From contig JAQGDQ010000206.1 of assembly GCA_030141605.1 (NCBI GenBank), positions 145,001-209,000 on the forward strand: a DNA stretch of 64,000 nt. Reading direction: 5' to 3'. Position numbers and translations under genes: made by a program. Positions 14,566 to 52,470 of the stretch are shown piece after piece (position 1 is the first letter of the stretch; each line of letters opens with the position of its first letter). This DNA is from Tubiluchus corallicola. Its lineage: Eukaryota; Priapulida; Priapulimorpha; Priapulimorphida; Tubiluchidae. The notes beneath the pieces were generated by a model. That model was not told the DNA's origin. It made no database searches and was given only the letters and a program-made list of their open reading frames with translations.

Positions 14566-17500
14566 TTATGAATTCATATAATAGAATACAGCTCCTATGA
14601 TAATCGCTAGTACAATCATCTGCGTCCAGGGCCTGAAAAATCAATAAAATTTTTGTACAATAAATATTCAATAAGAAGTAATCAATTTTTTCTAGAGTAA
14701 ACGAAATTGTTAATGTTTCCTAACAATGTAATTATTATAATCCAAGAGTAGTATGGCCCTCGTTTTTTTACGTCAAACTGACGAAAGATGGCGCAACAGT
14801 ACAGTAAGAAGCTGAAACGAGAAAGTGGCCTATTCAGGCTTAATTTTTCAGGAAATCTAGCGGCGTCAGCGTTTCTATGTCAACCCAAACTTTAATAAAA
14901 CAGACTAAAATTAATTTATCCACGTTTTAAACAGCGCAAATTCTGCATATTTGTGGGATATATAAACAACCATAAACGTGTTACTTAAGACACTGAATCA
15001 ACGAAGCACAATAAAAACGTTAAAAATGTTAAAAATGTAAAAAAATCTCCTTAAAGTATTTGAGAGATACCCATAATACTAACCATTTGCTAAAAAACAA
15101 ACTTATAAAGAAAACAACAAATTTTGTACACAAAATCGGGCTAGAATCAATCGCAAAGAACCCGAACACTAAGAATTTAAAATCAATAGAACAATAAAAT
15201 CAATATAAATGTTTTTGTGAATACTACTGTACAAGAACAGTGCAACAGTATTAGCTTGACTGAAGAAAACATCTTTTTTCTATATTGCCAAAGCCTATTG
15301 AATTAAAAGCAAAGCAAAGGACGCTTCGGAATTATAAATTTATCAGGCATAAGTTATTATTAATTTGTCTATGCAGAAATACAAACGTCAACAGAAAAAT
15401 TACTTAAGTCCTTCTTAACACACCACAAACAATTTTGCTGCCTACGTTTGTATCCAGCACATTACAAAACTACAGTCTGGAATGCAAAGCACTGGGTTTG
15501 TCGATTACTAGTTTTTTCTGACAAACTGATAAGTGGTTCAAACTGTCATTTACAGTTGCCACAGATCCGTTGTGATAATTCTGAGGGCTATTAGGCTTGC
15601 CATGGAATCCGTTTTTCGTAAAAACTTAGAATACGAAGTTGCTCTATTGTGACGTCACGCAACGTAAAAACTGGCGAAAACTTGTTACATGAACCATGAA
15701 AACAACGAGACCGACCTCCCTATAGGGCTGCATCCCAAAAAGTAAAAATCTAATAAGCTCTATTAATTCCATCATGATCTTGCTTGTGTGACAGACAGTG
15801 AACAGATATTTGCAATAATTGTTAATACCGTTCCAACATAAGTGTAATTAAAGGACAAGAAAATGGCCAACCAAAGCAAGCCTCGGAAAATTCTTAGTAT
15901 AATCTTAAGCGAATGAACTACTCACATTTTCGAATTTACTCCAATTTTTGTAAAATATTTCAACCGCTGCAGTAAACGTTGGCGCAGACATGTTTCATTT
16001 AGTCCGCCAATTGAAAAGCCAGCATGTGACTGATCACGTGGCATGACATCACCCGAACACAGTCGCAGTGAGTTGTGAGCACGTGTACTACCAAGACGTG
16101 TGTTTTGGTTCTGTGATGTCATCTAATATGGCGCCGCCGTGACAGTCTCGCGGGAGTATTTAAAATGAAAACAAACAGGCAATTCTTTTAACGTGAGAAT
16201 GATAAACGCTTAAGATTGCCTCAAACCATTATAATTCTTTAGCGAAAATTTTCTGAGACTTGCTTTAACACTAGGCATTTTCTGTTAAGTAGGTGCAAAC
16301 TAGCATATCACTCCCACTCACGTACAATTGCTAATGATCACAGCAAACCAAACTAATTAGTAGGTAACTAATTTAGAGCAAAGTGCAAAAGTAACAATGT
16401 CAGCCACATAGATCACAATCGCATGCGTGCACGTTAGAACGCATGCGCAGCAGATAGTTAGTTAATCTGTTACGAGTTAGATCAGGATTCATTAATCAAC
16501 AACGTAGGCCTAAGTAATCGATAACTCACCCGCACCGTTATGAGGTATTATTATTATTATATCTGGAAATTAAGTGGAAAAAAATCGATATTAAAGCACA
16601 AGGAAACTCTTTACTTAGATATAAATATAGTTTATAGCTTAGATATAGCTTGAAAAATTAGTCTTGAAATTTTGTATAACTTATATGCTTATTGCGTACA
16701 GAGCTTGCGTTAGCAGTAATGTTGTATAAATCTCTAAAATTTAAATTTTGTGAATAAGCGGAACATTAACTACGAAATTACAAAACACTGTTACATTAAC
16801 TAAAAATAGTCCAGCGCTTTAAAAAATAGTGCCGTCTTCCATAATTGAGTAAACAAATACAAAAATGACTTGTAACAATTTTAATTTACTTCTTGAAGCC
16901 TTTGATCTTTGCGTACCCCAAATATTGTCTCGGAAAAATGGGAGGGAGCAATCATGATCATGCTTTCAAATAGGATAATTCCCGGACTATCATTCCATGA
17001 ATGCATTGACAGCTACGTCGCTACAATTAGCTATTTAGTGGCGAAGACGAATTAACATTATCTAACATGCTAAATTTTTTTTTGAAAATTCACATCAAAA
17101 AACAATTCGCTTTGATACAGGTAAGATGTGTAGCTTAACAAAAGTTACTTACATGCCGGCGTCTTGAGGTGGCATTTCGTCGTACTTCGGTTTTATCTGA
17201 AAAATAGATCCGTATCTATAGCAACCACCGACCAGCAACAAGAGATGTTTTTGGTCGAGGTTCCATGCAAATCGCTACTCATCTGACTGTTGTTGTTATT
17301 GTGGGAGATGACGTTTCGAAAAAAAGCCCAAGGCTTCGTTAGTTCGTAATGGATCGTCATGCAACTTTACACGAATATATTAGAAAGAACTCTACATCGA
17401 CTGACAGAACTCAATTTTCGATCCGCCATTTTGAATTCCAGATGGCGGTAATAATATCATTTCCTAAGGGTCCGCCAATCCACAACGAATCATTAGAAAA

Positions 17501-20500
17501 CTTTATCGGAATGTACTAAAACAGATTAGGATTTTCGCTCAGCTATTTTAAATTCAAGATGGAGGTGATAACATCAGGTCCAAAAAAGCTTAAGACTCCA
17601 TCAACTTTCAGCAAATCGTAATGAAACTTTACGGGGAGTATACTAGAACGAACTCCCTGACAATGCCGATTCTTAATCTGCCATCTTTAATTCAAGAAGG
17701 CGGTGGTAACATCGTTTTGGAAAAAATGAGCAGGGCTCTACCAATTCGCAATGGATCGACATGAAACTTTATAGCACTTCGAACTTTTTTACACTTCGAC
17801 CCAGTTAGTGCCGCCATTTTAATGGTAAATCGTTTGAAAGAAGTTTATATAACAATTGTGCATAATCTAGAAAAATGATATCAGCATTCATAGCATAGAT
17901 TTCGCTAACTATGCAAAAGTTTAAATTATTTTTCCTTTTCAATGAGATCGTCATACGATACGATCAATAATGTGTTTTTTCGTGAATCAGTGGTGCACAC
18001 TGGGATGGTGAAACAGCGACGTTTTACCAGGCGGTGCAAACATTTTAAAATTATTAAAAATTTACTTTTACGGTTACATAAGCCTTTCAAACAGACAAGC
18101 GTAATGCTAAGCAATATATTGAGTTGAACAGGTGAATGTAGATTGTACATTTTTATTCATAGGTACCAGGCCAACCAACCTACAGGTAATGTTATGACTT
18201 CCACTTTAAACTAGGAAGCCCATAACATTACCTGCGATTGGTTGAGCAGTGGTTTCCTGTGGAAAGAACGAACACGTGACATCATAAGTTTTCTTCTGGT
18301 TGTCGTGGAATGCAGTTCTCCTCTCTGCCTGCCGAGTGTCGTGGATTCCGTAAGGTTTGAAGCATTGCATTGTCATCAGGTTTTGTTTTTTTTTCTATTG
18401 TGTTGTTCTTCTCAGCCGTCCCTTTTGAATTCTAAGTTTTGGTTTTGTTGTTTCTTTCTTAAAATTTCTGAGTGTCCGTTATGCAGCGCTTACCCGCATC
18501 GCCGATGGCGGACCGTAAGGCTATCTACCGGGTAGAACCAAGGAACAATATCTTTGTGTGGAAAATTCATGATAATTATACATACTGAATACTTACATAG
18601 ACATCTTTTTCTTTTCTATCTTCCTGAAAGGCAGACAAAAATATATGACTTAAATTCACAAAGTATCCTATCACATTTGCAATTAGTAGCATATTAATTA
18701 CTATTGTTTAGTCTTTGGTTTAAAGTTAGTAGACTAAAAGAAAAGTTGTACATAGCAATTTATTGAAAAATAAAGCTAAATTAGCAGACTTATGTGCTGT
18801 GCTTACAAGTGCTAAATCAGCAGACTTATGTGCTGTACTTACAAGAGCTAAATTAGCAGACTTACGTGTTGTACTTACAAGAACTAAATTAGCAGACTTA
18901 GGTGCTGTACTTACAAGTGCTAAATCAGCAGACTTACGTGTTGTACTTACAAGAGCTGAATTAGTAGAATTTAGCGCTGTACTTACAAAAGCTAAATTAG
19001 CAGATTTATGTGCTGTACTTACAAGTGCTAAATCAGCAGACTTAGGTGCTGTACTTACAAGAGTTAAATTAGCAGACTTATGTGCTGTACTTACAAGAAC
19101 TAAATTAGCAGACTTAGGTGCTGTACTTACAAGAGCTGAATCAGCAGACTTAGGTGCTGTACTTACAAGAACTAAATTAGCAGACTTAGGTGCTGTACTT
19201 ACAAGAGCTGAATCAGCAGACTTAGGTGCTGTACTTACAAGAACTAAATTAGCAGACTTAGGTGCTGTACTTACAATAGCTAAATTAGCAGACTTACGTG
19301 CTGTACTTACAAGAGCTAAATTAGCAGACTTAGGTGCTGTACTTACAATAGCTAAATTAGCAGACTTAGGTGCTGTACTTACAATAGCTAAATTAGCAGA
19401 CTTAGGTGCTGTACTTACAAGTGCTAAATCAGCGCTGTACTTACAAGTGCTAAATCAGCAGACTTAGGTGCTGTACTTACAAGAGCTAAATCAGCGCTGT
19501 ACTTACAAGAGCTAAATTAGCAGACTTAGGTGCTGTACTTACAAGTGCTAAATCAGCGCTGTACTTACAAGTGCTAAATCAGCAGACTTAGGTGCTGTAC
19601 TTACAAGAGCTAAATTAGTAAAATTAAGTGCTGTACTTACGAGTGCTAAATCACCTATATAAAATTGTTCCATCAATTCTACTGCGTCCGTGGAATGGCC
19701 GACTTCATCAAAACGTCTTGACGCATTTTTTCCTAAATTATCACAAAAAAACGTCATGTTTCGACAGCTGATATTATTTTAATGTTACGAAGTACAAAGA
19801 AAAATCTGCAGTTGAAATCGAGTTCACAAGCAAAAAAAACAAAAAACATCACAAAAATTCATTTAGAATAGAGTAGACAGCAAATATTTTTAAATGCCAG
19901 CGTACCTTGTTATAACTTTTCGCATCACAGTTAAATTAAAAGCGGCCTACTGCTTTGCATTGACGAAGTTTTTAGCTTACAGTAGGGGCACCAGAGCATC
20001 AAGAATATGTGACGAAAATCATTTTGAAGTCCTTTTACGCAAAAATACTTTTAACCTTCGTCAGCGAATTTTAAATTTAAATCATACGCAGTTTTGTTCA
20101 TAATATTGATACCATTTTAATTTCGAATACATTTGCCCATTGGGAATATACACTTACTAACCCTATTTACATATTTAGCTTGCTAGTTCTCTGTTCTTTG
20201 TGTAAATATTTATTTTATTGGTCTTGTCGAAATATTTTAAATTGTGATTTTTAACTATGCTTTGTTTATTATTCTATGGTACTTTTTGTGTACTGAAATA
20301 AAGGCAAAATAAATAAATAATAATAATTATTATTATTTTGTTTGTGTCAAGCCTTTAAATTCCAACACACCATAAACACTTTGATCGTATCATACTTTGC
20401 GTCTGCCGCACCACAAGCAGTTATTTTCCTACAATGTATAAGTAGTTGTCGATAAATTTTAGCTAAACAGAAAATTTAATTATGGTGCTCGAAAGCAGTA

Positions 20501-23500
20501 GTTCTTACATGCACTTTCCTAAAAACGCATTACTTTTTAAGTTTAATTGCTTAAAACCGCAAGAGAAAAAACAGCAAAAATTTTTGAATTTGAAAATTAT
20601 CAGTTAGTAGTAGTATAATCTTTATTTTGCCTTTTTAAACACATTGACCCGTCATAAAAAAGACAAACAATCAGTGTTAGTTCACATAAAAACACACTAT
20701 TACGGGCAAATGCATCAGGTGAAAACTAAACTATAAGTGCAAACTAGATATTCAAAAATAAAAGATAAACTACAAACACACAATACACTATGATAAAACT
20801 ACACACATTTCTCTTTTTTATTCCATACACGTTCACGCACCCATCCACCCTCAAACGCACGCACGCAGTAGAATTACCACGAAGTTCTCACTCGTCAGAA
20901 ACATTTGGTCTGCGAGTCATGTGTACAGGTCAACAAAAGTACACATAGTACTCACCAAGGATAAGAGACTAGAGAAGAGGAGAAGAGAAGAAAAAGGAAG
21001 AGACAGAAAGAAAGACAAACGGAAAAAAGAGATGGGTCAACAAAACTAAGCTTACCTCCTTGTTCTTTTAGCACCTCCTCGCCACCAGGGTGCTGAAAAA
21101 AACAAAATGGTCGTTTAAATTCTAGTTGGATATTATTTTTTACTGTTTTTGTATAGCAGTGTTGAATATTGAGGACAAAGCTACTATAACTTAAAAAAAA
21201 AATCACACAGTCTCCTTTCACGCAGCTCATCTTGAAGGATCCAAATTTGTAACACTAGCTAAGCTTAAATTTATTCTAATTTCAATTACTAATTTACTAC
21301 TAATCTTTGTTTACGTGTATACATCACAATGTTTCACGTTTTTTAACAAAAAGGTAGTTACTTTGAGTTTCCAGCAAGTACTATGTTTATTTAACTTTAT
21401 GGAACTTATTTGTGTCAAATAAATAATACATAAATAAATACCCTCATTTCACTATGTGTCATAATTCATATAATATGTTATGTATGTATATAATAATTAT
21501 GTATAATAATTCATGCTAATTTTACAAAACGTGTTTGCCTACGTGTAGGTTGTATTTGCAAATGATAAAAAGTTAATATTTATTTAGTTTTAAAACAAAT
21601 AAAGATTAGCAGTATTTTTAATAAAAGTCAAAATAAGTTTATAATAGGTCTACTAGGCTTATATTAACTAAGATAGTGACTGAAAGAAAAAAAACTAATT
21701 AAATTAATAAATCAGAAAGCAATAAAATCATGTAGAAAAGCAGAAATCAAAGAGAAAAAATATATTTACTAGCATTTGAATAAGTAAGTATTATTATCAT
21801 GCGAGGGTAAAGATTTTTTGTCATAAAATTGTTTAAATTTAGTTAGTAAGACACAATATTATTAAAACAAGGCACAGTTAATTGCATTTTTCCGCAACAG
21901 AGCGCGCCACCTGACAAAGCGTAAAATTTTCTGGAGCAGCAGACTAGAGTTAATGAAAGTTCACGAGCAAGGTTCTTATGACCCAAATTTCGAAGACGTA
22001 AGCAAAACATTTTCAGACAAAACTCCAGACAGCAGTTACGTCTTTAAAACGGCTACAGATTCTTTGCAAACATCTCACGATAGGCAGTGCATATTACGAA
22101 ATACTGGGCTTTTATAGCTGGACTCCTTGCTTTAAGATTTTCATGGGTTTATAGGCTGTTACAGCTATTTTTGTATCAGAACCGATTATAGTCATGTCAT
22201 GTTATTTATTGGTTTATCACAAAAAATCCATTGTTGTGCATGTAAAGTTCATCTAAAGACCAAACGAACGGTCAGATACAATCCGGGAATATCCGCTTGA
22301 AATAGTAGGAAAACCGGGAAAAGTTTACCCGACCCACTAAACTGTTCGGGACGTCTTACATCACTTTCACCTATACGTGACCCACCGTTTAACTTCCGCG
22401 GTGTGCCAGTTGCACCCCGTGTTACGTGTGCACGAAAGTAGCGCGCCCTAGTGACATTTCTGTGAAAACGAAAGTTCAAAAGTTAAATTTATAACCTCAT
22501 TTAAATTCACTAAACTTACAGCGAACACGATGACCGCTCTGACTCTTAGTTTTGTACGTCAGGTTTTTCAAATTTTTCAAATAATGAAACAAATCTGCCC
22601 AAGAACTGGCATAAAGGTAGGCTGCACATGAGAAATTGTAAAGACCAACAAAAAATTGTAAAGAAAGTGTACATAGTCAGTCGAGGACTAAAATGATATA
22701 TTGTTACAAAAAACATGGGTTTCCAACTAGGATTACTTTACACAGAAAAATGGAACCATAGCCTACTGCACACTTCAGTACTTCGGTACCATTTTCAAAG
22801 TTAAAAGCAAAAACACGACTGCTTTTCAAAATAAACCGTTTAGTACTTGTGCAATGGCTCGAGAAACCCTTGAGAGAACAAAAACATTAGTTTTCTTTAA
22901 TGCTAAAATGTCGCTAAAGGCGCGTTCAGACTAGCGAGTTTTCTTGCCAAGTTAACTCGCCCAGTAATTCGCAAGGTTGATCAGACTACACAGCAAAATT
23001 TGCTGAGAGTTACTGTCTGACAGTAAGCGCAAGCTGACTCAATTCTCTACTCACTGCGAGAAATGTCGAGAGTAACTCGCTAGTCTGAACGCGGTGTGAG
23101 AATCATCAGATATTTGTAAAGCAGGTCGTTTGCAACTTGCAAGTTTCATGTCTTCACTTAGACTTATTTCAGTGGCCGTTTTGCTCACGTCTGCTACAGC
23201 AATCGAGGCCTAATTTTTCAACATTAACTGTTTATTATTTGAACAACTAGCACAAAGTCCGCTGTCTTCATGACAGAATGATCACGACTTCAAACTCTGT
23301 GAAGATAGCTATGTTCAAACACATGATATAATACAAACGGCTAACGTATTTGTATTAAAGGAAAACGAGACCAAATCTATAGCTCAAAACAATCTACCAT
23401 ATAAAATATCGCAAGAAACATACTGTAACGGATCCGGGTCCTTTCCATGCGCCGATCCGTCTCAGGATGTATAGAGCGGCATACAAGTTATGAAATACTT

Positions 23501-25912
23501 TACAGCAGACGAGAAAAGTAAAAAGATACGAAATGCGAGTGTAAATTTAACTTTATTGCACAACCGGTAACTCCAAAAGAATGACATGTGAACAGACTTT
23601 GGTATAAAATGAGCAAACCTACAGCATTCACCTTTACAGACAGAAAGGCCAGGTTGGAATCGTCAAATTACGGCATGCATTCTGTTTTATACAGGTACAT
23701 TTGCATTACTGGGCTTCTCGACTATACCCATTACTAACATTAGAGGGTTGGTCAAATCTGCCTTCGTAACAATACTGTTTTTTTCAAGAACTAGTTACGT
23801 AAAAGAATTATTAGGCCTACCACAGGAACGTAATTTTGCGTTCGTGTAACTGGTTTTTTGCTGTTACATGTATGCATTTCACCATGTGCTAGTAACTCTA
23901 TTTCTGAACTTGTCACTGAAAGGCAACAGCAAAAGTCACATTGATTTGCAGTAAATATTCATTGTTGTATTTTTGTTTTTGGGTGACATTCATGTTTTTC
24001 TGGTTTTGTTCTTTGAACGCAGTGATGCATGCTTCATTTTGTGCACTAACAATAATACAAATATGTATTGAATTTGAAAAAACATTTTTTATATTTCCAA
24101 CTACGAAGGGTTCGGTGAATGCACGTACAAAACTTGCTGGACACTAGCGCCTATATCTCAGAAATCCGTTTCACAAAAGCAGGCGGTGTACCTCTCAGTT
24201 CGGAGGTGTTCAGTTATGACGTAATGCACACGTACGAAGCCTCATGCGTAAGCACACTCAGCCAGCGGTAAAGCTCCAATGTGAATTTTAAAGCCGAATT
24301 TTTGTATACCACACAGAATGTTGTACTGTAGCACAGCACTTGAATTTACGCTTTTGCAAACAAATGCAACCTGCTCAGAAAATGTTTGTTGTACTGTAGA
24401 AAATTATGTTCAGTTGTGACGTCATCACTAGCTGAGCTCTCCCGTCGTTAATTAAGCGTTTAATCTATTAATTAATTATCATAATCGTTTAGCATCATTA
24501 TGGGTGTTAAAATGTATGTTTTTACCGTAATTCAAAATGTGGTAGGAAGTAAAAAACTATCCCGTTTGTCTTTAAAAAAATTACGAAACTTGTCAACATT
24601 AAAACATAGTTAAAAGGAAAAAATGTACATAGGACTCAAGCAGGCCTATAGATTATGATTCAGTACAGGCACATCTATATAGCCATTATAAAAAATAAAC
24701 TTCAAAATCTGAAAAAACGTATATAATTTGATTATACACACACATATATATGTACATACAAGTATATCTTTATTGTACAACTAATGAATATAAGTTTAGT
24801 AACTGCAATTAGCCGTACTTGTCTTAACGCAGGAACATTAATATCAATTTACAACGCCAAGAAAATACGAAGCCACATTTGTAAAATAACAGGCTAGAGA
24901 TTTCATACTTGTGCGCTTATGATAAAAACAATGTCTGACAATAACTTGATATGAATCCATTATCGAGGTTAAACTTGCGAACTGCATAACATAATAAAGT
25001 TAGATAAATCACTTATAGTTCTTTAATTCACTTTATACCTTTGATAATTTACCTTTTTTAAATTCTAGTTTCACAAACTCATGATTTTTCGGGGTTTCGC
25101 GTACGTGTCTACAGTATCAACCACATCAACAGATTGGGGCGCATCTGGGAGGGGTTTTTGAGACGAAGCCCAAAACAGAAAACTGTGCGTTTTTATTCTC
25201 TAATTTTGAAGCACGCGAACATATATTATCAATCGTCTATAACTTACTTATACTTATAACAAAGTATAACATTAACATTCTGCATTTGCGTGTTTATAAA
25301 TCCCCTGACATCAGCACCGTTCAATGGCAATGAAGGTGACCCGCGCTAGCTACGTTTTCTTATTGTTTTTGATTCAATAACGACCATTTTAGACTGGGGC
25401 AGACGTGACAAACATAAACCCCCTGTTTGTATGGGGTATACAGTTAAAAATGTCTGAAGATGCAGAAAAATGGCTATTCTTTGCTCCGGGACCTCTTTGT
25501 CCCAAAGGTTATTCTAAGTAATCCGCCACTGGATTGTATCATGAAGCAATAAAAATCATAATTTTAAATGCCTTAATTTGTAAATAACTTAATTTTTCGG
25601 CTTTTGCAAATCAGTAATTTTTTACAACAATAATGCAACTGGAAAATAGTTAAGATCGTTTCGACAAGTAGCAATCTCACGCGTGAGGATAAGTTGAATC
25701 AAAACGAATTCTGCACAAAATTTCGCATAATTTAAAATAGGACTTAAATTTTGTAGGATAATAAAATCAAGTCAGCTTACCGTTAAAATAAATTGCGTCA
25801 CATCGTACACTTTATTATGTATCAGTACCCAGCATCTTGCTTTCGAATGGCTCTTCTCAATTTCGGACATGCGAATGTAATTAATGTCCGTGCCTTTCTT
25901 TTCTTCGGGCAT
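14566..25912 (-). CDS. CYB5: Cytochrome b5, tail-anchored, complete
   Basis: Six exons join in phase: 25912-25781, 21092-21056, 19732-19641, 18623-18597, 17196-17153 and 14632-14566. The product is 132 residues, normal for membrane cytochrome b5. This haem protein passes electrons from cytochrome b5 reductase to desaturases and P450s on the ER. Residues 1-44 (MPEEKKGTDINYIRMSEIEK...) include WVLIHNKVYDVTQF. HPGGEEVLKEQGG follows with axial His45, then FDEVGHSTDA with axial His69; the 24-residue spacing is canonical. FYIGDLALEDRKEK and IKPKYDEMPP form the linker, and WTQMIVLAIIIGAVFYYM is the C-terminal anchor. ATG 25912 is preferred over the in-frame ATG 25870 because it supplies the family's N-terminal strand. 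Using the exon 3 donor at 19641 gives the family-like linker and keeps frame with exon 4. The next intron begins with an array that repeats this donor about 25 times. Confidence 0.93.
17300..17835. repeat. Degenerate tandem repeat of about 120-140 bp with GCCATTTT...ATGGCGG palindrome
   Basis: Three to four diverged units lie in the last cytochrome b5 intron. Recurring landmarks, in order, are aatggatcg, atgaaactttac, agaacgaactc, ccgccattttgaattc, agatggcggt and taacatc. The best palindrome (17423-17448) has arms ccgccat and atggcgg around gaattc. The arms resemble YY1 sites (AAGATGGCGG). Confidence 0.7.
18172..18244. other. Long hairpin (about 30-bp arms, 11-nt loop) in a cytochrome b5 intron
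   Basis: The left arm (18172-18202) starts caaccaacctacaggtaatg. The right arm (18214-18244) is its near-complete inverse, ending cctgcgattggttg. Only a few mismatches interrupt the stem. The size resembles a precursor microRNA. It could equally be the remains of a small palindromic transposon. Confidence 0.6.
18775..19640 (-). repeat. 36-bp minisatellite derived from the cytochrome b5 exon 3 splice junction
   Basis: About 25 tandem units (mostly 36 bp, some 26 bp) start directly at the exon 3 donor and run into intron 3. Read on the minus strand, a typical unit goes gatttagcactt, then gtaagtacagcacctaagtc, then tgct. Exon 3 itself ends gatttagcactc before gtaagtacagcac, so each unit repeats the last 12 exon bases plus the 5' splice site. 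All but one terminal copy (gtaagc) keep GTAAGT. The short units lack ten internal bases. The plus-strand ADLGAVLTR-repeat frame is an artefact. Confidence 0.92.
19733..21055. other. Cytochrome b5 intron 2 with retroposon tails
   Basis: No exon is seen. At 20296-20338 aaataaaggcaaaataaata and aataataataattattatt look like a retroposed 3' tail. At 20610-20640 the inverted form taatctttattttgccttttt appears, as if a second copy sits in the opposite orientation. The right end near 20955-21040 is purine-rich (agaagaggagaag). Confidence 0.45.
21093..25780. other. Cytochrome b5 intron 1 (4.7 kb)
   Basis: It contains the inverted-repeat element at 22930-23093 and otherwise AT-rich sequence. Short open frames at 22249-22479 and 23941-24147 have no recognisable domains or splice context. 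Confidence 0.5.
22930..23093. mobile_element. Small MITE with 19-bp terminal inverted repeats
   Basis: The ends gcgttcagactagcgagtt and aactcgctagtctgaacgc are perfect inverted copies, 164 bp end to end. Related words (gagttactctcgacac, tctagtctgaac) recur in the array at 53500-53850. Confidence 0.75.
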
Positions 25913-31125: not shown

Positions 31126-31413
31126 ATGTTCCTTCTAATGGTTTTGTCGATTTTTATATGTTTTTTGTTTCTTCATTACAGAGGGAGGCAAAAGTTTTCC
31201 GATACCCGAGGAAGGCAGTCATTTCCTAACACTCGAGGGAGGCAATTGTTTCCTCACACCCAAAAGAGGCAAGCATTTCCTGACACCCAAAAGAGGCAAG
31301 CATTTCCTGACACCCGAAAGAGGCAATCATTTCCTGACACCCACGGGAAGCACTCGTTTCATGACACCCCAAAAAAATCTAAGGAAAAAACTCGAATTTG
31401 CCAAGAGATTTGA
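31126..31413 (+). CDS. Small repeat ORF resembling a neuropeptide precursor (tentative)
   Basis: A 95-residue frame starts MFLLMVLSIFICFLFLHYRG, which looks like a signal peptide. Seven nine-residue repeats follow, encoded by 27-bp units at about 31182-31370, in forms such as QAFPDTQKR, QAFPDTRKR and QSFPDTHGK. Middle repeats are separated by KR, and an N-terminal Gln could become pyroglutamate. Repeated short peptides between dibasic sites after a signal peptide are the architecture of neuropeptide precursors. Against this, the early repeats have GR rather than KR, and there is no amidation glycine pattern. The hydrophobic start is T-rich sequence ending in cattacag and could be an intron end. 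A second frame through the same repeats is also open. It may be only a minisatellite. Confidence 0.3.
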   Translation: MFLLMVLSIFICFLFLHYRGRQKFSDTRGRQSFPNTRGRQLFPHTQKRQAFPDTQKRQAFPDTRKRQSFPDTHGKHSFHDTPKKSKEKTRICQEI

Positions 31414-31717: not shown

Positions 31718-34700
31718 TTATGCTGGACCCTCAACATGGCTGATTTTCATAGTAACGTAGTAAATTGCTCGGAAAACGAATAGCAAGCCGATACCGTAGA
31801 GAACTGCAAAATAAAACAGTGATGAATTAATTAACTTGTATGAGGAACTAGCAGGAACAAGTACAAATAGTAAAGCAATAAAAATATTAATTTTCAAAGC
31901 TAAATTTAATTAATTTGGCTAACGGCACACGCACAGTAGCGAGTTATCTCTTGTGAGTTTTGTCTCTGACAGCAAACTCACACGTGTGAAATAAATTCCT
32001 GACTTTAGAAGTCGAATCGATCCGAACATTGCGGATTTAGAATCGGAATCGAATTCAAATTCAGTTTCAAAGATTTTTGAAAAAATTTTTGAATCATTAA
32101 TAAAAATCGATGTTACACTTGATTCTGCAGTAAAAATGCTAATAATTTGTTTAAAAATTGTGCACAGAAATCACAGCTAAATTGTGTTGATTGCTTGATG
32201 TTTCAAAGGTTTTAATGATAAAGAACGATAAATTCGATTCGAACATTCAGTGCTAGCCTCTAACCAACAGGGTTGCAAAAAACACCACCCTCCCCCTACA
32301 AGCATTGCTGTTACTCAAGAAGGATTAATTGTCTAAAACATTTACAAAGCAGACTGCACATCTGCCACAATGACAAGCAAGAAAACTTGTAAGCTGCATA
32401 ACTGCCATGTCAGCAAGCAAGAAAACTGGTAAGTTGCATAACTGCCACGACCACATGTAAGAAAACTGGAAAGCTGCATAATTGTAACGGTCACAAACAG
32501 GAAAACTGGTAAGCTGCATAACTGCCACAACCACATGTAAGAAAACTGGCAAGCTGCATAACTGCCATGACAGCAAGCAAGAAAACTGGTAAGCTACATA
32601 ACTGCCATGACCACAAGCAAGAAAACTGGCAAGCTGCATAACTGCCACTACAGCAAGCAAGAAAACTTGCAAGCTGCATAACTGCCACGACAGCAAGCAC
32701 GAAAACTCGTAAGCTACATAACTGCCAGACAGCAAGCAAGAAAACTGGTAAGCTGCATAACTACCATGACCACAAGCAAGAAAATTGGTAAGCTGCATAA
32801 CTGCCACGACAGCAAGCAAGAAAACTGGTAAGCTGCATAACTGCCACAATCACAAGCAAGAAAACTGGTAAGCTGCATAACTGCCACGAGCACAAGCAAG
32901 AAAACTGGTAAGCTGCATAAGTGCCATGACCACAAACAAGAAAACTGGTAAGCTGTATGACTGCCACGATCACAAATAAGAAAACTGGTAAGCTGCATAA
33001 CTGCCACGATCACAAACAAGAAAACTGGTAAGCTGCATTTATTCAAAAAAGGAATTTTATACAGGAAAAATTTTTAAGTTAAAATAAAACAGCTTGTCTA
33101 CTTGCATTAGCTGCCATACCCACCTGTCATAAGAATGATGATTCCAGTCGACATGTTATTGAGGGTCCCAACCTGCAAGGTACGCAAGTGTTTAATAAAG
33201 TTTATAGACTTTTCATTTTCGCCAGAATCAATAGACTAACACTTTGTACATAAATAAAGGTTAAACAAAGAGCGAAGTCTCTTGTGAAGTTGAGATTATA
33301 TTAATTTATAGAAAAATGTTAGAAAGTTTCAGCAATAAACATGCGATAAGAGCCTCGCGTAATTAGTTTAATCAATTTAAAGTCGTAGTTGTTTCACTCT
33401 TCGGCATTTTGAACGAAAATGATGTCAGCCAATTACAGTGTAATAGGAACTGCCCACTTATCCCACCAGGTGCTTGAGCAAAATTCTTCTGCAGCCACGG
33501 TTACTATTATCAATTACAAACAAACCCAAAACGTTAAATGAGAGACTATCAATACTATTTTTTTGCTCTTTGACGAATCCTGTTGCCTATTATTTAACGA
33601 AAAGCCAATTACTGACGATGATCTAATAACCTACAACACGACTAGTTAACAGAATGTAGCAATAAATGCTCTTACCGTCACGCCAATGCCAGCAGCAAGA
33701 AAAACAATGGCTATAATAAAAAACAATGCGGACTTCCTCCTAGCATACTGCGGTCCAACTGTAGATCTAAAATAAGAAATAATAAAATAGAAAATTAAAA
33801 AAAAATACATGAAGAGAAAAATCAGGAAATAAAGTCGTCTGACTAAATTACCAATCTATACGACTGTTAGTCCAAATTGTCAAGCGTAAAGTAAAAACAT
33901 ATCTCTAAAACTGACATGTGCGATAAAACAAAACAAAAAAAACAATGCAACAAAACAAAAATAACCAGTTGGGAGATCGACAATGACAATAAAAAACATA
34001 TATTCGGTAAAACTAAATCAAACAGTAGACACGATAAAATAACACGTGTCATGTTATAATTCAACATCTTTAGCATTTTTATGAAGAAGTTGCTAAAGGT
34101 AAGTGCTAAGACACTGAAAAATAAAGTAGAATACAGGTGAGTTTCGTTTTATATCTCATAAACTTTATTTTATGAATCAGTAGTGATACCATACATTATT
34201 CTCTCTGTCATAATTACACTAATGTAATTAAAATGTATATAGATATTGTAAAAGAACTAACCCAAAATGATTTTGTCGTAAATTGATTATACAGGCATAC
34301 TGTTTATATACGAATGACATTAATGTAAGATTATTTATGTATGTAGAAGCTATAACATATATTATTTGTACATACAGTAAAACATGTATAAACATTGTAC
34401 GCAAATATTAGATATGTAATTAGAATTAATAAATCGTAATGCAGTTGTGTTAGCTTGTTTAGTAAGAAATTGGTAACTGTGAAGAATTTAATGTAAACAT
34501 TTATTTAACATTTTTGTACTTATGTGCCCTGCAAATAGACGGCTTATTGTATCATTTTCAATAAAGATTTTTAATAATTAATAATAATCTCTCTCTCAAG
34601 TCACATGTTTGCAATGTGATCAGTAAAAACCAACTGCCCAGGTAAAATTTTCCATGAAGTAAAAGGAAGCCAGCAATTCAGTGAAGGTAAATGTTATGCA

Positions 34701-37700
34701 TACTAGTTCAAGGATGAAAGTTTAGACTGTATAGAGAAATAAACTTGTTTTATAGCTGAAATTTCTTGTGTGGAATTTTAATTTAATATTCTAACAAGAG
34801 AATCAGGGATGAGAATGACAAATTGCAAAAAACTCTGAAACAGGCCGGGAGTTTGGGGGCCGTGCAGGCAGCAACAAATTGCAATTTTATGACCATAGAG
34901 AGCCCCTAAGAGGACTTAAAATATCAGTTACCTTGTTTCATGCATAATTTAAAATACTCAACTATCAAGGATAACCGACACCTAATTGTCTCAAAAACGC
35001 CTAAGTACTGGCCGCTCCTATGCAAAAGTATATAAAAACTGTCTGCAATTGATTCAAATAACTCCGCACAATTGATTCTATATTTTTATACATAGAGATA
35101 TACGCGTGGTTACACTGATGTACTTGATGTAAACAAAGTGACGGCCTGCCAACTAGCGGTCAGCTTGTGAAATAATGTACTGGGTCCGTAAAAATTTTCT
35201 CAACGAATTCACGCGATTTACAATAATGGCACTACTGGTCTTCCAAAAACTCGGAATTCCGCGTATCCGCGGAAAATTCTCATCCCTGGAGAATGTAATA
35301 ATATGACTATTGATAATAATTACAAAACTAATAATTAATAAAAATAAAATTAACAAATCGTAAGATTCACGACATTTTTTCACAAAGTTAATATACGTGC
35401 GAAAATGAAAGTAGCTTTTCGATGCTTGATCATGACCTGCTGCAATGCATCATAATGCCAATAATGTGGAAATATACTTAAAAATTTGTTAGAATTCTGC
35501 CAACGATAGTTCGCTAGTCAGAAAACGCCGTATCGAACAACGCAGAATAAAAATTCTCAAACTTTGTGAGAGCAACATTTTCTGCCAAATTCAGGATTTC
35601 TATTCAGTAAACAAATAAATAAATAAAATAAAAAATAAAGTGCTAAAAAATTATAAAGCATGTGAACTTACACTTTGCGACAATGTGGGCACCTTGCCAG
35701 AGCATTGGTCGTTGTCCTAAACTGTAAACAAAAACAAACAAACACTGGTTACATGATATAACCTTACATCAAATTTTTTTGTAAACAAACAATAAAAATC
35801 AAACTTTATTAAACACTTTATTAGTTTTAACATTGCACATATTTGTAATAAATATAATGTTACTGTTGATGACTTTATTAAGAAATACGACGACACTAAT
35901 ACTGTTATTTTAAGCAAGCCAGTGCTAAATGAAAACGATAATCTAATTAAACAATTTATGAGACATTTCCTTTCCACACAATAACGATTCGAATAATATA
36001 CGTAGGCACACAGTTTCGAAACAACTTTTTATTTTATTATTGTATCATAAATATCTGTTATAAATCGTCGATTTATGACTAATTTGTGACTAATACGTAA
36101 TCGTTTATTTAGCTTTTTATCTCTTGATGTACTAATCTCTTTTATGTAGTGATCGCAATGATGTACATATCAGGGGCGGAATTAGGGGGGGGGGGCGCCC
36201 CCTTGTCAAAATTTGCGCCCCCCCCTGCAAAATCGGACAAATAATTTTTTTGCAGTGAAAATTGCAGTTCGCATGTAATCATTTTCAATATGAATTAGAA
36301 TTAGGTAAAAAAAATGTTTGGTAGCTTCAGTGTATTATTTTCTTAAAACTTGTGTGTGATAAATTTCTGTAAATAACAATTTAGTTAGAGGCACATTAAT
36401 AACGTTAGGTTAACTGAGAGTTAATTTTCTCATTATTGCTTTGTCCGCTACGCCGTCCTACACACATGCTAATTATCGGCCTGCATGCAGTATAAAAGGG
36501 GTTAAAATTGGCTTAACCATTATTTAACCACTTCGGATACCTTGCCCCCCCCCCCCAGAAAATTTTTGCGCCCCCCCTGCTTGCCACATCTAGTTCCGGC
36601 ACTGGTACATATCATGTTGATCGAATATGTTTGATAATACAGTTGAATCTGATTATACCACCCACCGTTATAATGCTAACCTCGCCTACCGCCATCCGCC
36701 AGCGTATCTGCTGTGCCAAAAGTCTATTTTACATGATAAATTTACCTCGTATAATGTCATCCAAGATAAATTACGGTGAACTGTTGCTGAAAAACAGCCA
36801 TTGTGTTACAAAAACAATGACCTCTGGACAGAAAAACAATTATGATGTTTAAATTAAGGTTTAGGCCTTTTTACAGTACCGAAAGTGAATGCTGAGGTTT
36901 TGAGCAAGGAACATGCATTTAAAGAGTGCAAGAATTGCATAACTAAGGTTCAGTACCGAACTGATGTGAATTTAACAGCTTTAAAAACTCAAGGTCAAGT
37001 TATATGCTACGGCTATCTATAGTCTTTATTTTATTTTATTTTATTTTATTTTGTCAGATTTCACAGGCGTCGGATCTGTTCACCTGTGTGTTGCCTTTTG
37101 ACTCGAGTCAAACTTGCCAAATTCCAAATTCTTCCGTAAAGATACGGCATCCGTCAATTCCGTGGGAACTGGATTTCTCCAGACCCAACAAAACTCGCCT
37201 TTTCGATACCGTAAAGGTACGGTATCTACCGGCTACTCATAGAGTAGTCGGATTTCCCCTAGGTATAAACCTTTCACACGTTTGGATGTAAGAACTCGAG
37301 TGGTAACATCCTGCGCAGGAGATGACCTAGGTCTCCCTCCTTTGCCTTCCCAGGAACTTTCTAAACACCATACATGAGCCTCTAATCGCCGAGCGGACTA
37401 GTTTGGCTCTGACGTTCAGAAGACCGAGTGTCTTCAGGAGAACGTCGTTCTCTCCTCCTGCCCATTCCCCACGAAAGCCCACACAGATGCCGTGCGACGA
37501 GGCAGTGGCAGAGCCGCACCGCTGTTTGACGGCATCGAGGATCGGTTCGTACTTCAGGGCTTTGTCCCTGCACCTGGCCCTAAGCGAGTAGATGTTTCCT
37601 GCTGCCGAGATGGTCGGATCGATAACGTACGTATGACCACCTTTGATCGCCAGGATGTCGGGGTGGTACCTTGTTCTGTTGATCTCGAACCAAGGTTTCC

Positions 37701-40700
37701 TGACGACCGTAAAGGCCCTCCCCCTTCAAGGCTTCGGCGAGCACCTCGCACAGTGCATTGTGCCGTCGTGATATGGCATTGTTTACTGTTATGCACTGTT
37801 GAAGTACGTGAACCTGACTCTCTGCATGTCTCCCGCACCTGCGACATCTCCTGATTGCATTGGGTTGTCCTCTCGTGGTGTTAACTCTAACTGGTAGAGA
37901 GTTGGTGATCATCTTGAGAACCAAGATATAATCACGCCCGCTCAGGAGTGTGCTGCTACGTAGGTAATGGGTACTCAGTGGGTCAGCAGACACGGCTGCA
38001 AAACCCTTCCCATGCACTTTATCGTTGAATGTCGATAGATGTTTGCGATCGTTATCCCTTTTTGCACGATTTATGTCTTTTGCGTTACTGTAGGCTTCGA
38101 GGCTCGCTACCCTCTTAGCCCACACAAGCTCCCTATTCCACACTGGAGCAGATGCACTCATGTTCACCAGCGGATCTGGTGAGGCCTGCAATCGGCTGAG
38201 CATCTTGACTTTCATCAAAGGAACATCCTTTTCAAGACAAGAAAATCCCAGCCCTCCCTTCTTCATTGGCATGTAGAAGAATGCATTCGGGACATCCGTC
38301 GCCATATGAAGTATACGTTTTAGGCTTGATCTTATAAGCCTGTCTGCTCCCTTGAGGCCATTCATATGAACCTCACATATACGGAAGTGGTATGTCAGAC
38401 GCGGAATCACATATTGTCTGATCATATCCACCTTTTGTTGAGGTTTGAGTGGTGCCCCTTCCACTCTTATAAGCCATGCTTTAAGGGACTTGGTGTCCAT
38501 GGTGGGTCGTCCCTTAGCAGTCATAGGAATTCCTAGGTATTTGTATGCATCACTGACTCCCAGCATTGGAATAGGAGTCTGGCTGATCTCCCATTAATGT
38601 TCAGTAATGTTACATTGGGAGCATTGAGTGGGTGGGTCGCATGGCTACATATTTCTCTTATCAGCAGTAGGCTAATCGCTTATATTAATATTCTTGGTAT
38701 ATTTATATATATATATATAAGATTCGAGGCTACAGCTTTGACGAGGGCACCATTTGCGGCGATCTATATATCAAACGAAAGGTCTTGATCTAGTGTCGTG
38801 CCATTGATGGTTTATTTTTCGAATTGGGCCCACCGCGAGGAAGGGGAGGGGGGCAAAAATTAATCAGTATTTCACAAAATTGATTTTCCAGGTTGTGTTA
38901 AGTAAACGTTTTACAATGTACCACCATAGAACTACACCTGCATTGTTAATACAGCAACAATATACAGTATAAAACACAGGTATTCTTGTAGGCATAATAA
39001 TATTATATTATTTATCACATGTTAAAATTAACTAGGAAACAAAATAGAGGCTACACATCAGAATGGCTTTTTGATAATTAATGAACCTCGTCTTACCGCC
39101 AACCCAGTTCTAGCCGCATACTTAGTAGCGTCCCAGACCTGGTGTGGTAACGAGGTTTGACTGTAATAGGAGCATTAAATTATGAGTTTTTACACATTTT
39201 ATAATTGTAACAATTAAAAAGGCCTAAATCGGAAACACCACAGCACAACGGTTCTACGAATGTGAACAAACCTTTACGTACCAAAAATGTTTGTAAGCAA
39301 TGAGCACAAACAACTCGACACTGACCAGTACTGACCGGACTCGTGACAGGAGTGGGAACTGGCACTGGCCCGAGATTGATGATTCGTTTGCTGTAAAACA
39401 GATGAAAGTCGGTATAATTTTTTTAACATAAGATGTAGGTGCTGCCATCTGTCTGTGTCGATAGAAAAACTAAACATCAGCGAACCTGCGCAAGAGCATT
39501 TCAAAGCTTATTTAGCGCAATGCACCTGACTGAGATGGATGCCACATTTGATGTAAAACAGATAAACTCATCACATAACATATGTCTACAAGTGCTGCAC
39601 TCTATGTTGAAACTTATAATATTTTAATTAATTCAAATTATATTTACAGAAAAACAAGTAACTGCGTTAAAATGAAATCGTTATGTAAATTATAGTGTAA
39701 AATATGTATAAATTTTAAATTTGTTCTTAATACGTGTTGTGAAACTTAAAATTGTGGTTTTGATGTATATATGTAAAAGTTATGTAAAAGTTAGCAAACT
39801 GAAACACTACTAGTAGAGTATGCATGTACAAAATTGGCATTATGTATAATATTGTTATCGTAAATAGCTATATTTTGTAAACGAATCCCTGCAAATAGAG
39901 GGGAAACAATGTATTTATTGTTTAATAAAAAGACTTTATAATAATAATAATAATATGTTAACACCACCACTTGACAAAACTAATGGTAAACAAGCCTTAA
40001 AATAATAATACGAGCAAGGATACTTCAAAGCTTGATTAGCTAGCATCAACAATCTGTAATCATTTACTAATTTAATGAAAATTTATCATTGCCGTATTAA
40101 TAGCATTAATGTACAACAGCACAGTCTCCTTTAAGAAAAATAATTAAATTGTAGTTAATCAAATATTAAATAATAATTAATAATTACGATAACAGTCAAA
40201 AGTAAAAAACGTCAGTAATGAAGATCTCAAAATCAATATGGTGTATGAAACCACCTAGCCAACTATCCATTCACAAACCAGTCTCCCATTGCTTAACTTT
40301 GGTTAATAAGCACACATCATGACTACTGGGCTATTAACTTCTGACGTACATTCGCGCCACACCGACCTTCGCTAGACTCACATTAATGCAAAGGAAAAGT
40401 AATACATTAAGATTCTCAATGACTGAATTTAAAATTCAAATAAATTATAGCAATCAATTTCAAATTTGAAAGAACAGGTTCATACCATGAAGGTCTTGGG
40501 CACGCGATGCGCTGAGATGTAGTCTTGCAGATGAGGAGGCAATTGCAAGGACACCTCACGTACTTCTTCCCCGGGGGAGCATTCCGAATTGGCTAGAAAA
40601 ATGAAAGATAGACAGTTATCCTCTCATCATGAAAATGCCTAAAATGACAATTCAATTTTGCTACTCATTAATCATAGTGACAGAATGAAAACTGAATTTA

Positions 40701-51052: not shown

Positions 51053-51962
51053 ATTATGGCAAACAACGGGTGCCAGGATCTAATACAAATTCTATGGTCT
51101 GCTGTATGACGAACAATGGGTGCCAAGTTCTAACACAAATTCTATGGTCTGCTGTATGGCAAACAATGGGTACCAGGTTCTAATACAAATTCTATGGTCT
51201 GCTGTATGGCAAACAATGGGTGCCACGTTCTAATACAAATTCTATGGTCTGCTGTATGGCACACAATAGGCGCCAGGTTCTAATACAAATTCTATGGTCT
51301 GCTGTATGGCAAACAATGAGTGCCATGTTCTAATACAAATTCTATGGTCTGCTGTATGGCAAACAATGAGTGCCATGTTCTAATACAAATTCTATGGTCT
51401 GCTGTATGGCACAAAATGGACACCAGGTTCTAATACAAATTCTATGGTATGTTGTGTGGCAAACAATGGGCGCCAAGTTCTAATACAAATTTTATGGTCT
51501 GCTGTATGGCAAACAATAGACGCCAGGTTCTAATACAAAGTCTATGGTATGTTGTGGCAAGCAATGGGCGCCAGATTCTAATACAAATTCTATGGTCTGC
51601 TGTATGGCAAACAATGGGCGCCATGTTCTATTACAAATTCTATGGTCTGCTGTATGGCAAACAATGGACGCCAGGTTCTAATACAAATTCTATGGTATGT
51701 TGTGTGGCAAACAATGGGTGCCAGGTTCTAATACAAATTGTATGGTCTGCTGTATGGCACACAATGGACACCAGGTTCTAATACAAATTCTATGGTCTGC
51801 TGTATGGCAAACAATGGACGCCAGGTTCTAATACAAATTCTATGGTCTGCTGTATGGCAAACAATGGGCACCACATTCTAATACAAATTCTATATCTGCT
51901 GTATGGCACACAATGGGTGCCAGGTTGTAATACAAATTCTATAGTCTGCTGTAAGGAAAAAC
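51053..51962. repeat. 50-bp minisatellite downstream of the coiled-coil gene
   Basis: About 18 tandem copies of a 50-bp unit that runs tgccaggttctaatacaaat, then tctatggtctgctgtatggc, then aaacaatggg. Copies differ by a few substitutions. Open frames on both strands through the array are artefacts. Confidence 0.95.
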
Positions 51963-52470
51963 AATGGCTGATACACATTTTTGAAGTATTTTTTGATGTG
52001 CTGAGATATGCTAGCTAGCAATCTCTCTGTGCACATTTAAATCTATGGAACAAGTATATTTTTGTGATTTATAATAATATATTTCATCTTTTCTTTTACT
52101 TTTCGTTTATCTCTGTTAGTCAGAGTTAGACATTCAGGAAATTTTTCTCAAGAAAAACTTCTCAAGGAAACCAAAGAATGGTCGTTTTAATATACTGAAT
52201 TTATTTGGAGAAATGTAACTAGTCCAGGATTTTATTGCGCTTTGTTTCTGATTATCATGTTGTAATGATAAAACGTTATTGCCGATTCAAGACTAGTGTT
52301 TATTTTTTTATTATTATTACTATGCTGTTGTTGTGCTTGTGCAAAATACATTAAATTGGTGAGATTATCAGCACGATATTTTTGCCGAGGGTTTATGCAT
52401 CATTAATAAATAAATGACCAAATTTGATTATTGTGATATTTAATTGTTGTTTATACTTAATCGTATAGAA

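Follow-up and report, generated by a model that had tools for sequence, protein, structure and literature searches.

A minisatellite of 25 tandem 5' splice sites probably seeded over an exon/intron junction of a cytochrome b5 gene

The stretch of DNA considered here, hereafter the window, comprises 64,000 nucleotides (positions 145,001 to 209,000 of contig JAQGDQ010000206.1) of a genome of 343.5 Mb and carries, on its minus strand, a cytochrome b5 gene whose third intron is largely filled by a ladder of tandem 5' splice sites (donors). The gene model joins six coding exons, from 25912 to 14566 (Table 1), into a protein of 132 residues. This protein matches the cytochrome b5 domain PF00173 with an E value of 7.2e-22, and so has a haem-binding b5 domain, and reaches 4.6e-26 with the best b5 chain of the Protein Data Bank (PDB); the identity proposed in a first-pass annotation of this DNA is thus borne out. 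The tail encoded by exon 6, MIVLAIIIGAVFYYMNS, is hydrophobic as judged by reading the translation alone and is a putative C-terminal membrane anchor, and exon 4 is in phase 0 on both sides, so that its skipping would keep the frame. The b5 protein has 11 matches in the genome, of which three are exons of the gene itself; the other eight are only 25-59% identical and therefore include no close copy, and no retrocopy showing the spliced junction was found among the 11.

Table 1. Positions of the exons of the cytochrome b5 gene and of the parts of the donor ladder in the window.
Feature	Position	Strand	Remarks	Basis
Exon 1, coding part	25781..25912	-	starts ATG; GTAAGC directly after	gene model; PF00173 over joined protein
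Exon 2	21056..21092	-	HPGGEEVLKEQGG; between CAG and GTAAGC	gene model
Exon 3	19641..19732	-	ends GATTTAGCACTC	gene model; two PDB alignments gap-free at exon 3/4 junction
Exon 4	18597..18623	-	EDRKEKDVY, 27 bases	gene model; paralogue has 27-base EDRPEKDFP exon
Exon 5	17153..17196	-		gene model
Exon 6	14566..14632	-	hydrophobic, putative C-terminal anchor and stop	gene model; hydrophobic stretch read off translation
Donor ladder	18775..19640	-	25 donors, 36- and 26-bp units	tandem-repeat and unit analysis; gene model
Donor 1 (GTAAGT)	19635..19640	-	ancestral, probably main donor	PDB alignments; gene model; paralogue
Donor 2	19599..19604	-	+12 residues in frame if used	gene model
Donor 3	19563..19568	-	+24 residues in frame if used	gene model
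First 26-bp unit	19543..19568	-	in-frame TAG terminating the products of donors 4-25	
Second 26-bp unit	19481..19506	-		
Third 26-bp unit	19419..19444	-		
Donor 25	18801..18806	-	sole mutated donor (GTAAGC)	

Intron 3 extends over 1017 bases (18624-19640), and the ladder occupies 866 of them. Counting from the exon, 25 donor copies run from 19640 to 18801, in 21 complete 36-bp units, three 26-bp units (units 3, 5 and 7) and, at the end, an incomplete unit; the 26-bp units all lack the same 10 bases and form a 62-bp higher-order repeat. GTAAG is intact in all 25 copies and GTAAGT in 24, in agreement with the first-pass annotation, which had seen about 25 donors in 26- or 36-bp units, nearly all of them GTAAGT. 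Splice signals are thus kept in many units, which is one of the marks of a mirage, as certain repeats over exon-intron boundaries in amphioxus are called (see below). The sequence GTAAGTAC starts 24 of the 25 copies and GTAAGCAC starts copy 25, while three extra GTAAGT, each 13 bases into a unit (units 11, 21 and 23), bring the total of the array to 27. On both strands of the whole window GTAAGT occurs 81 times, against a shuffle mean of 43.9 (standard deviation 7.1, 100 shuffles), 27 of the 81 being held by the array. A search of the one assembly with the array gave a single match.

The 36-bp unit corresponds approximately to the first 24 bases of the intron and the last 12 bases of the exon, that is to an exon end plus an intron start, as in a mirage; the array also starts at the exon's own donor and every unit repeats that donor, as in minisatellites of the IFI6 or ABCA7 type. 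When the last 14 exon bases were compared with the 24 complete units, 12 of 14 matched in seven units, 11 in one, 10 in six and 9 in ten, the binomial chance of one 12/14 match in a fixed register being about 8e-6. For the last 12 exon bases the best unit reaches 11/12, a ceiling that comes from the exon ending in CTC and the units in CTT; the first-pass description of the repeat as the last 12 exon bases plus donor holds in that the exon end recurs, but no copy of it is complete. That annotation was also right about the junction itself, although 19641, the position it gave, is the last exon base and the intron starts at 19640. The last unit holds, at its bases 24-32, TAATTTAGC, a stretch similar to TGATTTAGC of the exon end.

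A b5 paralogue on contig C1442 (locus L013, G000:C1442:580500-590400) has an exon 3 that ends TATATAGGTGATCTAGCAGAG at the matching place and shares 19 of its last 24 bases, a phase-0 intron at the matching position and a 27-base exon 4 encoding EDRPEKDFP. The matching intron, of 672 bases, has a single donor, GTCAGT, and in the 9.9 kb of the paralogue locus the tandem-repeat finder reported no long tandem array, only two minor repeats of less than three copies. Since the paralogue keeps both exon 3 and its junction with one donor and no such array, these are older than the array. The comparison supports the view, already put forward in the first-pass annotation, that the array grew from the b5 exon 3/intron 3 junction and, together with two b5 structure alignments, supports donor 1 as the ancestral junction.

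The predicted product of splicing at donor 1 aligns gap-free over the exon 3/4 junction in the two printed PDB alignments (58 sequences matched). By translation, use of donor 2 would insert VSTALNFTNLAL, and that of donor 3 VSTALNFTNLAL followed by VSTAPKSADLAL, in frame in both cases; these are the inserts of 12 and 24 residues that had been predicted from the first reading. As that reading had likewise said of the later copies, donors 4-25 (22 of the 25) all reach the TAG in the first 26-bp unit, and would yield one and the same 117-residue protein without the membrane anchor.

Conservation of the donors was assessed by counting distinct variants per unit position, cells (minority letters) providing an alternative count. 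The GTAAGT positions hold one of 18 distinct variants where three are expected (P 0.17 binomial, 0.19 permutation) and are not significantly conserved, nor are the eight positions of GTAAGTAC, again with one of 18 (P 0.067 binomial, 0.075 permutation). Selection on the donors was not accepted as evidence of function, and donor conservation is not firm evidence of selection although no donor has lost its GT. The array folds no better than its shuffles (z +1.0; 17 of 20 shuffles at least equal), and a special RNA structure of the array was rejected on this value. For pairing with U1, donor 1 has a computed energy of -7.1 kcal/mol, 23 other donors have -6.8 and donor 25 has -4.3.

This genome has many ladders with consensus donors. 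The pattern GTAAGT x3 has 18304 matches genome-wide against 17787 for the reversed pattern, thus no excess, and among the 100 matches listed 47 are AAGT runs on contigs C2 and C26. These listed matches come from nine distinct places, of which seven were fetched; two of them (L034, L035) lie at likely exon ends and five (L036-L040) show no obvious exon end at the ladder. The pattern AGGTAAGT x3 has 1410 matches against 103 for its reversal, but these matches overlap and are not independent, so that an enrichment of independent ladders is not claimed; AGGTAAGTCAA, with which a dispersed 42-bp family and the ladder on C30 begin, is present in 629 of the 1410, and the ladder on C5 alone supplies 34 of the matches listed. 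Single AGGTAAGT motifs number 18 against 15 reversed in 264 kb (20 sampled regions and the window). The AGGTAAGT x3 matches listed fall in 13 distinct places, including four of the seven fetched (C5, two on C17, C24): six belong to the 42-bp family (two on C17, three on C38, one on C92), one is a microsatellite (C36), and the six others are on C5, C24, C30, C32, C88 and C92.

The ladder on C32 lies in a smoothened-like gene (L043, G000:C32:103600-104700) with an Fz domain (4e-13) and best matches to smoothened structures (7e-42), and its exon end is supported by homology. The ladder's three complete units, of 42 bp, agree with the final 42 bases of the exon at 33 (unit 1), 34 and 35 positions; splicing at donor 2 would insert VSFLNCKNYPWKCE in frame, 14 residues of which two are cysteines, while donors 3 and 4, the latter reading GTAATT, would meet a stop. 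The ladders on C5, C24 and C88 are likely to stand at exon ends, judging from an open frame and splice signals. On C5 (L034, G000:C5:113400-116400, minus strand) the likely exon ends GATGAACGGGTGTTACACATGTACAG and is followed by 46 33-bp units and one 32-bp unit, with GTAAGT in 42 of the 46, and the first extra unit brings an immediate stop in the exon's frame. The peptide of this exon found nothing in PDB or NCBIfam searches; a suspected resemblance of the 27-residue exon to phosducin-like proteins was unconfirmed, the only match of the phosducin family being on another contig, where the matching protein has a similar ELED...YR stretch. On C24, six donors 55 bp apart follow a signal-peptide-like start; the C88 peptide matched no Pfam family, the exon end on C92 is possible, and no exon was seen at the C30 ladder. 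The dispersed 42-bp tandem family, whose unit contains AGGTAAGTCAA, was encountered on C17, C38, C92, C96, C112, C130 and C169. No exon was seen at the ladder at the four starts or ends of this family that were inspected (L037, L038, L047, L048); at L048 a likely exon lies about 200 bases upstream.

We consider it quite probable that the b5 array is a minisatellite seeded over the exon 3/intron 3 boundary and mostly ignored by splicing, with donor 1 as the main donor, and that the ladder is most likely tolerated rather than useful, neutral or nearly so. Short stretches of near identity would have lain on either side of the first donor, TGATTTAGC closing the exon and TAATTTAGC at bases 24-32 of the intron, and this pair of repeats, 36 bases apart, may have given rise to the first 36-bp duplication through slippage or unequal exchange. 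The donor would then have been carried along in every new copy as the array grew by later exchanges, and a 10-base deletion in one copy would have spread as the 62-bp dimer. In the RNA, U1 could probably bind many copies, donor 1 would mainly be used and the remainder would leave with the intron; donors 2 and 3 would contribute minor noise only, with 12 or 24 more residues, and later donors truncated products. Arrays are common in the genome, since six were found in 200 kb sampled (20 regions on three other contigs; unit of at least 12 bp, at least 4.5 copies, at least 200 bp), and because arrays of this length are common some will strike junctions.

Several observations weigh against this interpretation. 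GTAAG has survived in every one of the 25 copies, and GTAAGT in 24, though splicing at 22 of the sites would cut the protein short, and neutral decay would be expected to have broken some donors unless the array is young. When conservation is counted by cells, the first eight of the 36 positions account for only one of the 49 minority letters, which leans to conservation; this count weighs less than that of distinct variants because the units share ancestry, which inflates the figure. Moreover, AGGTAAGT x3 outnumbers its reversal 13.7-fold (1410 overlapping matches against 103), an excess not obviously to be expected from purely random seeding, although AGGTAAGTCAA is present in 629 of the 1410.

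Three uses of the array suggested in the first-pass annotation, as a U1 sponge, an isoform generator or a length regulator, received no positive support, the donors being not significantly conserved, the fold at z +1.0 and the predicted products of 22 of the 25 donors truncated. Competing donors could, on the reading frames, give membrane b5 with a linker longer by 12 or 24 residues, while donors 4-25 would yield a soluble b5 of 117 residues with VSTALI as its C-terminus: donors 2 and 3 preserve the frame exactly, the later donors share one stop before the anchor, and donors 1-24 are nearly equal in U1 pairing. The smoothened-like gene of the same genome has the same pattern (donor 2 in frame with 14 residues, donors 3-4 to a stop), and IFI6 is reported to make three mRNAs with two downstream repeat units as donors (PMC4526556). 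We nevertheless find such isoform production rather unlikely, given that the donors carry no significant sign of selection, that a longer linker at the junction is absent from both printed b5 alignments, and that the truncated products precede further exons and would, by an established rule, probably be decayed. To a similar degree we doubt that donor-seeded ladders form a recurrent, non-random class, in which growth would prefer 5' splice sites and first extra units could keep the frame, providing a reservoir of graded isoforms (b5 with 12 or 24 more residues and soluble b5; a smoothened-like extracellular domain with 14 more) and of raw material for new exons or introns. A long run of U1 sites might, by analogy with ABCA7, slow or misdirect splicing so that the tiny exon 4 is skipped, and the frame would survive this since its 27 bases are in phase. 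In the ABCA7 report skipping of exon 19 grows with repeat length (p 3.24e-13), but the sizes contrasted there reach several kb, against 0.87 kb in b5 (PMC5954066), and with analogy as the whole of the argument we hold a length-dependent effect in b5 to be very doubtful.

Structure, which might help donor 1 weakly, could offer another way of choosing among the donors. The copies might pair mutually through CUUGUAAG, which is self-complementary with G-U pairs, leaving donor 1 to be picked; donor 1 would escape the mutual pairing because the exon ends in CTC. The predicted probability of an unpaired GTAAGT reaches its maximum at donor 1 (0.062, the median over the other donors being 0.024; with a longer span, 0.070 and 0.010) and drops to 0.007-0.008 when the C of the exon end is read as T in silico, the median openness over 46 GTAAGT elsewhere in the window being 0.094. 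Donor 1 is however under that window median, the donors of exons 4 and 5 are about equally closed (0.040 and 0.060), a short span (80/40) puts donor 1 just 9th of 25, and the whole array folds no better than shuffles; as the differences between donors depend on the span used, accessibility is kept only as a rival account, and a distinctly unlikely one. That the array exists for binding U1 small nuclear ribonucleoprotein is barely credible: it does place 24 perfect GTAAGT in register, and 27 in total, within a transcribed intron, but this number of sites is, as is well established, trivial beside the U1 of the cell, and conservation of the donor bases does not significantly exceed that of the remaining unit positions. 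An error of assembly, affecting the array or its copy number, is conceivable in that one amphioxus mirage appears to be mis-assembled in a genome draft (PMC3087553); here the differences between units are ordered and include a 62-bp higher-order repeat, and the flanks make one intact gene, which renders it highly unlikely.

Other repeats and open frames occur elsewhere in the window. A 40-bp minisatellite of 16.6 copies (32374-33038) has GTAAGC on the plus strand in many units and lies, by reading only, between two exons of a small minus-strand membrane-protein gene; these GTAAGC would not be sense donors because the flanking exons are on the opposite strand. A 50-bp minisatellite at 51055-51967 has 18.3 copies with 88% matches, and a 27-bp repeat of six copies at 31213-31374 is within an open frame, candidate coding sequence, with repeated QSFPDT/KR-like motifs. 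On the minus strand, the open frame of 337 residues at 37580-38593 resembles the C-terminal part of a reverse transcriptase of the non-long-terminal-repeat type.

Where near-identical donors form ladders at real junctions, nature provides, with no construct, a test of the choice that U1 and the spliceosome make between equivalent sites. At alternative 5' sites, U1 can sit on both even if one is used (PMC5861446). The b5 and smoothened-like ladders also yield two protein-level predictions, inserts of 12 and of 14 residues respectively.

The b5 repeat belongs to a kind already described, that of mirages and of the donor repeats of IFI6 and ABCA7. The name mirage was given to tandem repeats spanning exon-intron boundaries in amphioxus Adh3, with a unit of 10-72 bp, and such repeats were met again in globins; their length varies, somatic instability has been reported at Adh3, and they have been proposed as a source of new introns (PMC3087553). 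Similar repeats are reported in PGBD5, with troponin C cited (PMC3902484), and mirages seem, by both papers, not to disturb regular splicing. Among the papers listed for amphioxus, mirage and minisatellite, we found mirages named only in PMC3087553 and PMC3902484, subscription papers being mostly uncovered, so that wider reports may exist. Like the amphioxus mirages (Adh3, globins BflGb6 and BflGb9, troponin C, PGBD5), the b5 units span an exon-intron boundary. The first description of a mirage is reportedly that of Canestro and colleagues in 2002. Unlike the mirage of BflGb6, which has 6 and 3 units in two haplotypes (PMC3087553), the b5 array has more donor copies. The named cases come from cephalochordate hosts, and if the present host is not a lancelet the phenomenon is wider than in the reports found. 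A search of this genome for the GFP family gave no match; as the control genomes gave none either, the result favours neither alternative.

In human ABCA7, the 25-bp unit of a variable number tandem repeat in intron 18 begins with the GT of the exon 18 donor, with 23.7 copies in the reference, and one repeat unit is retained through a second donor in 2 +/- 1% of transcripts (PMC5954066). The b5 array likewise starts at the exon's own donor and repeats it in each unit, but the unit retained in ABCA7 changes the reading frame and there are known alleles of different length, whereas the first two b5 units are of 36 bp and in frame. Human IFI6 (6-16, G1P3) has two downstream repeat units as donors of its three mRNAs (PMC4526556). 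As in this minisatellite, tandem donors stand at an exon end in b5; use of the donors is reported for IFI6. PMC4526556 cites Turri 1995 for the IFI6 donors. What is new here is that one genome holds several such ladders, two of which, in the b5 and smoothened-like genes, are in genes identified by homology.
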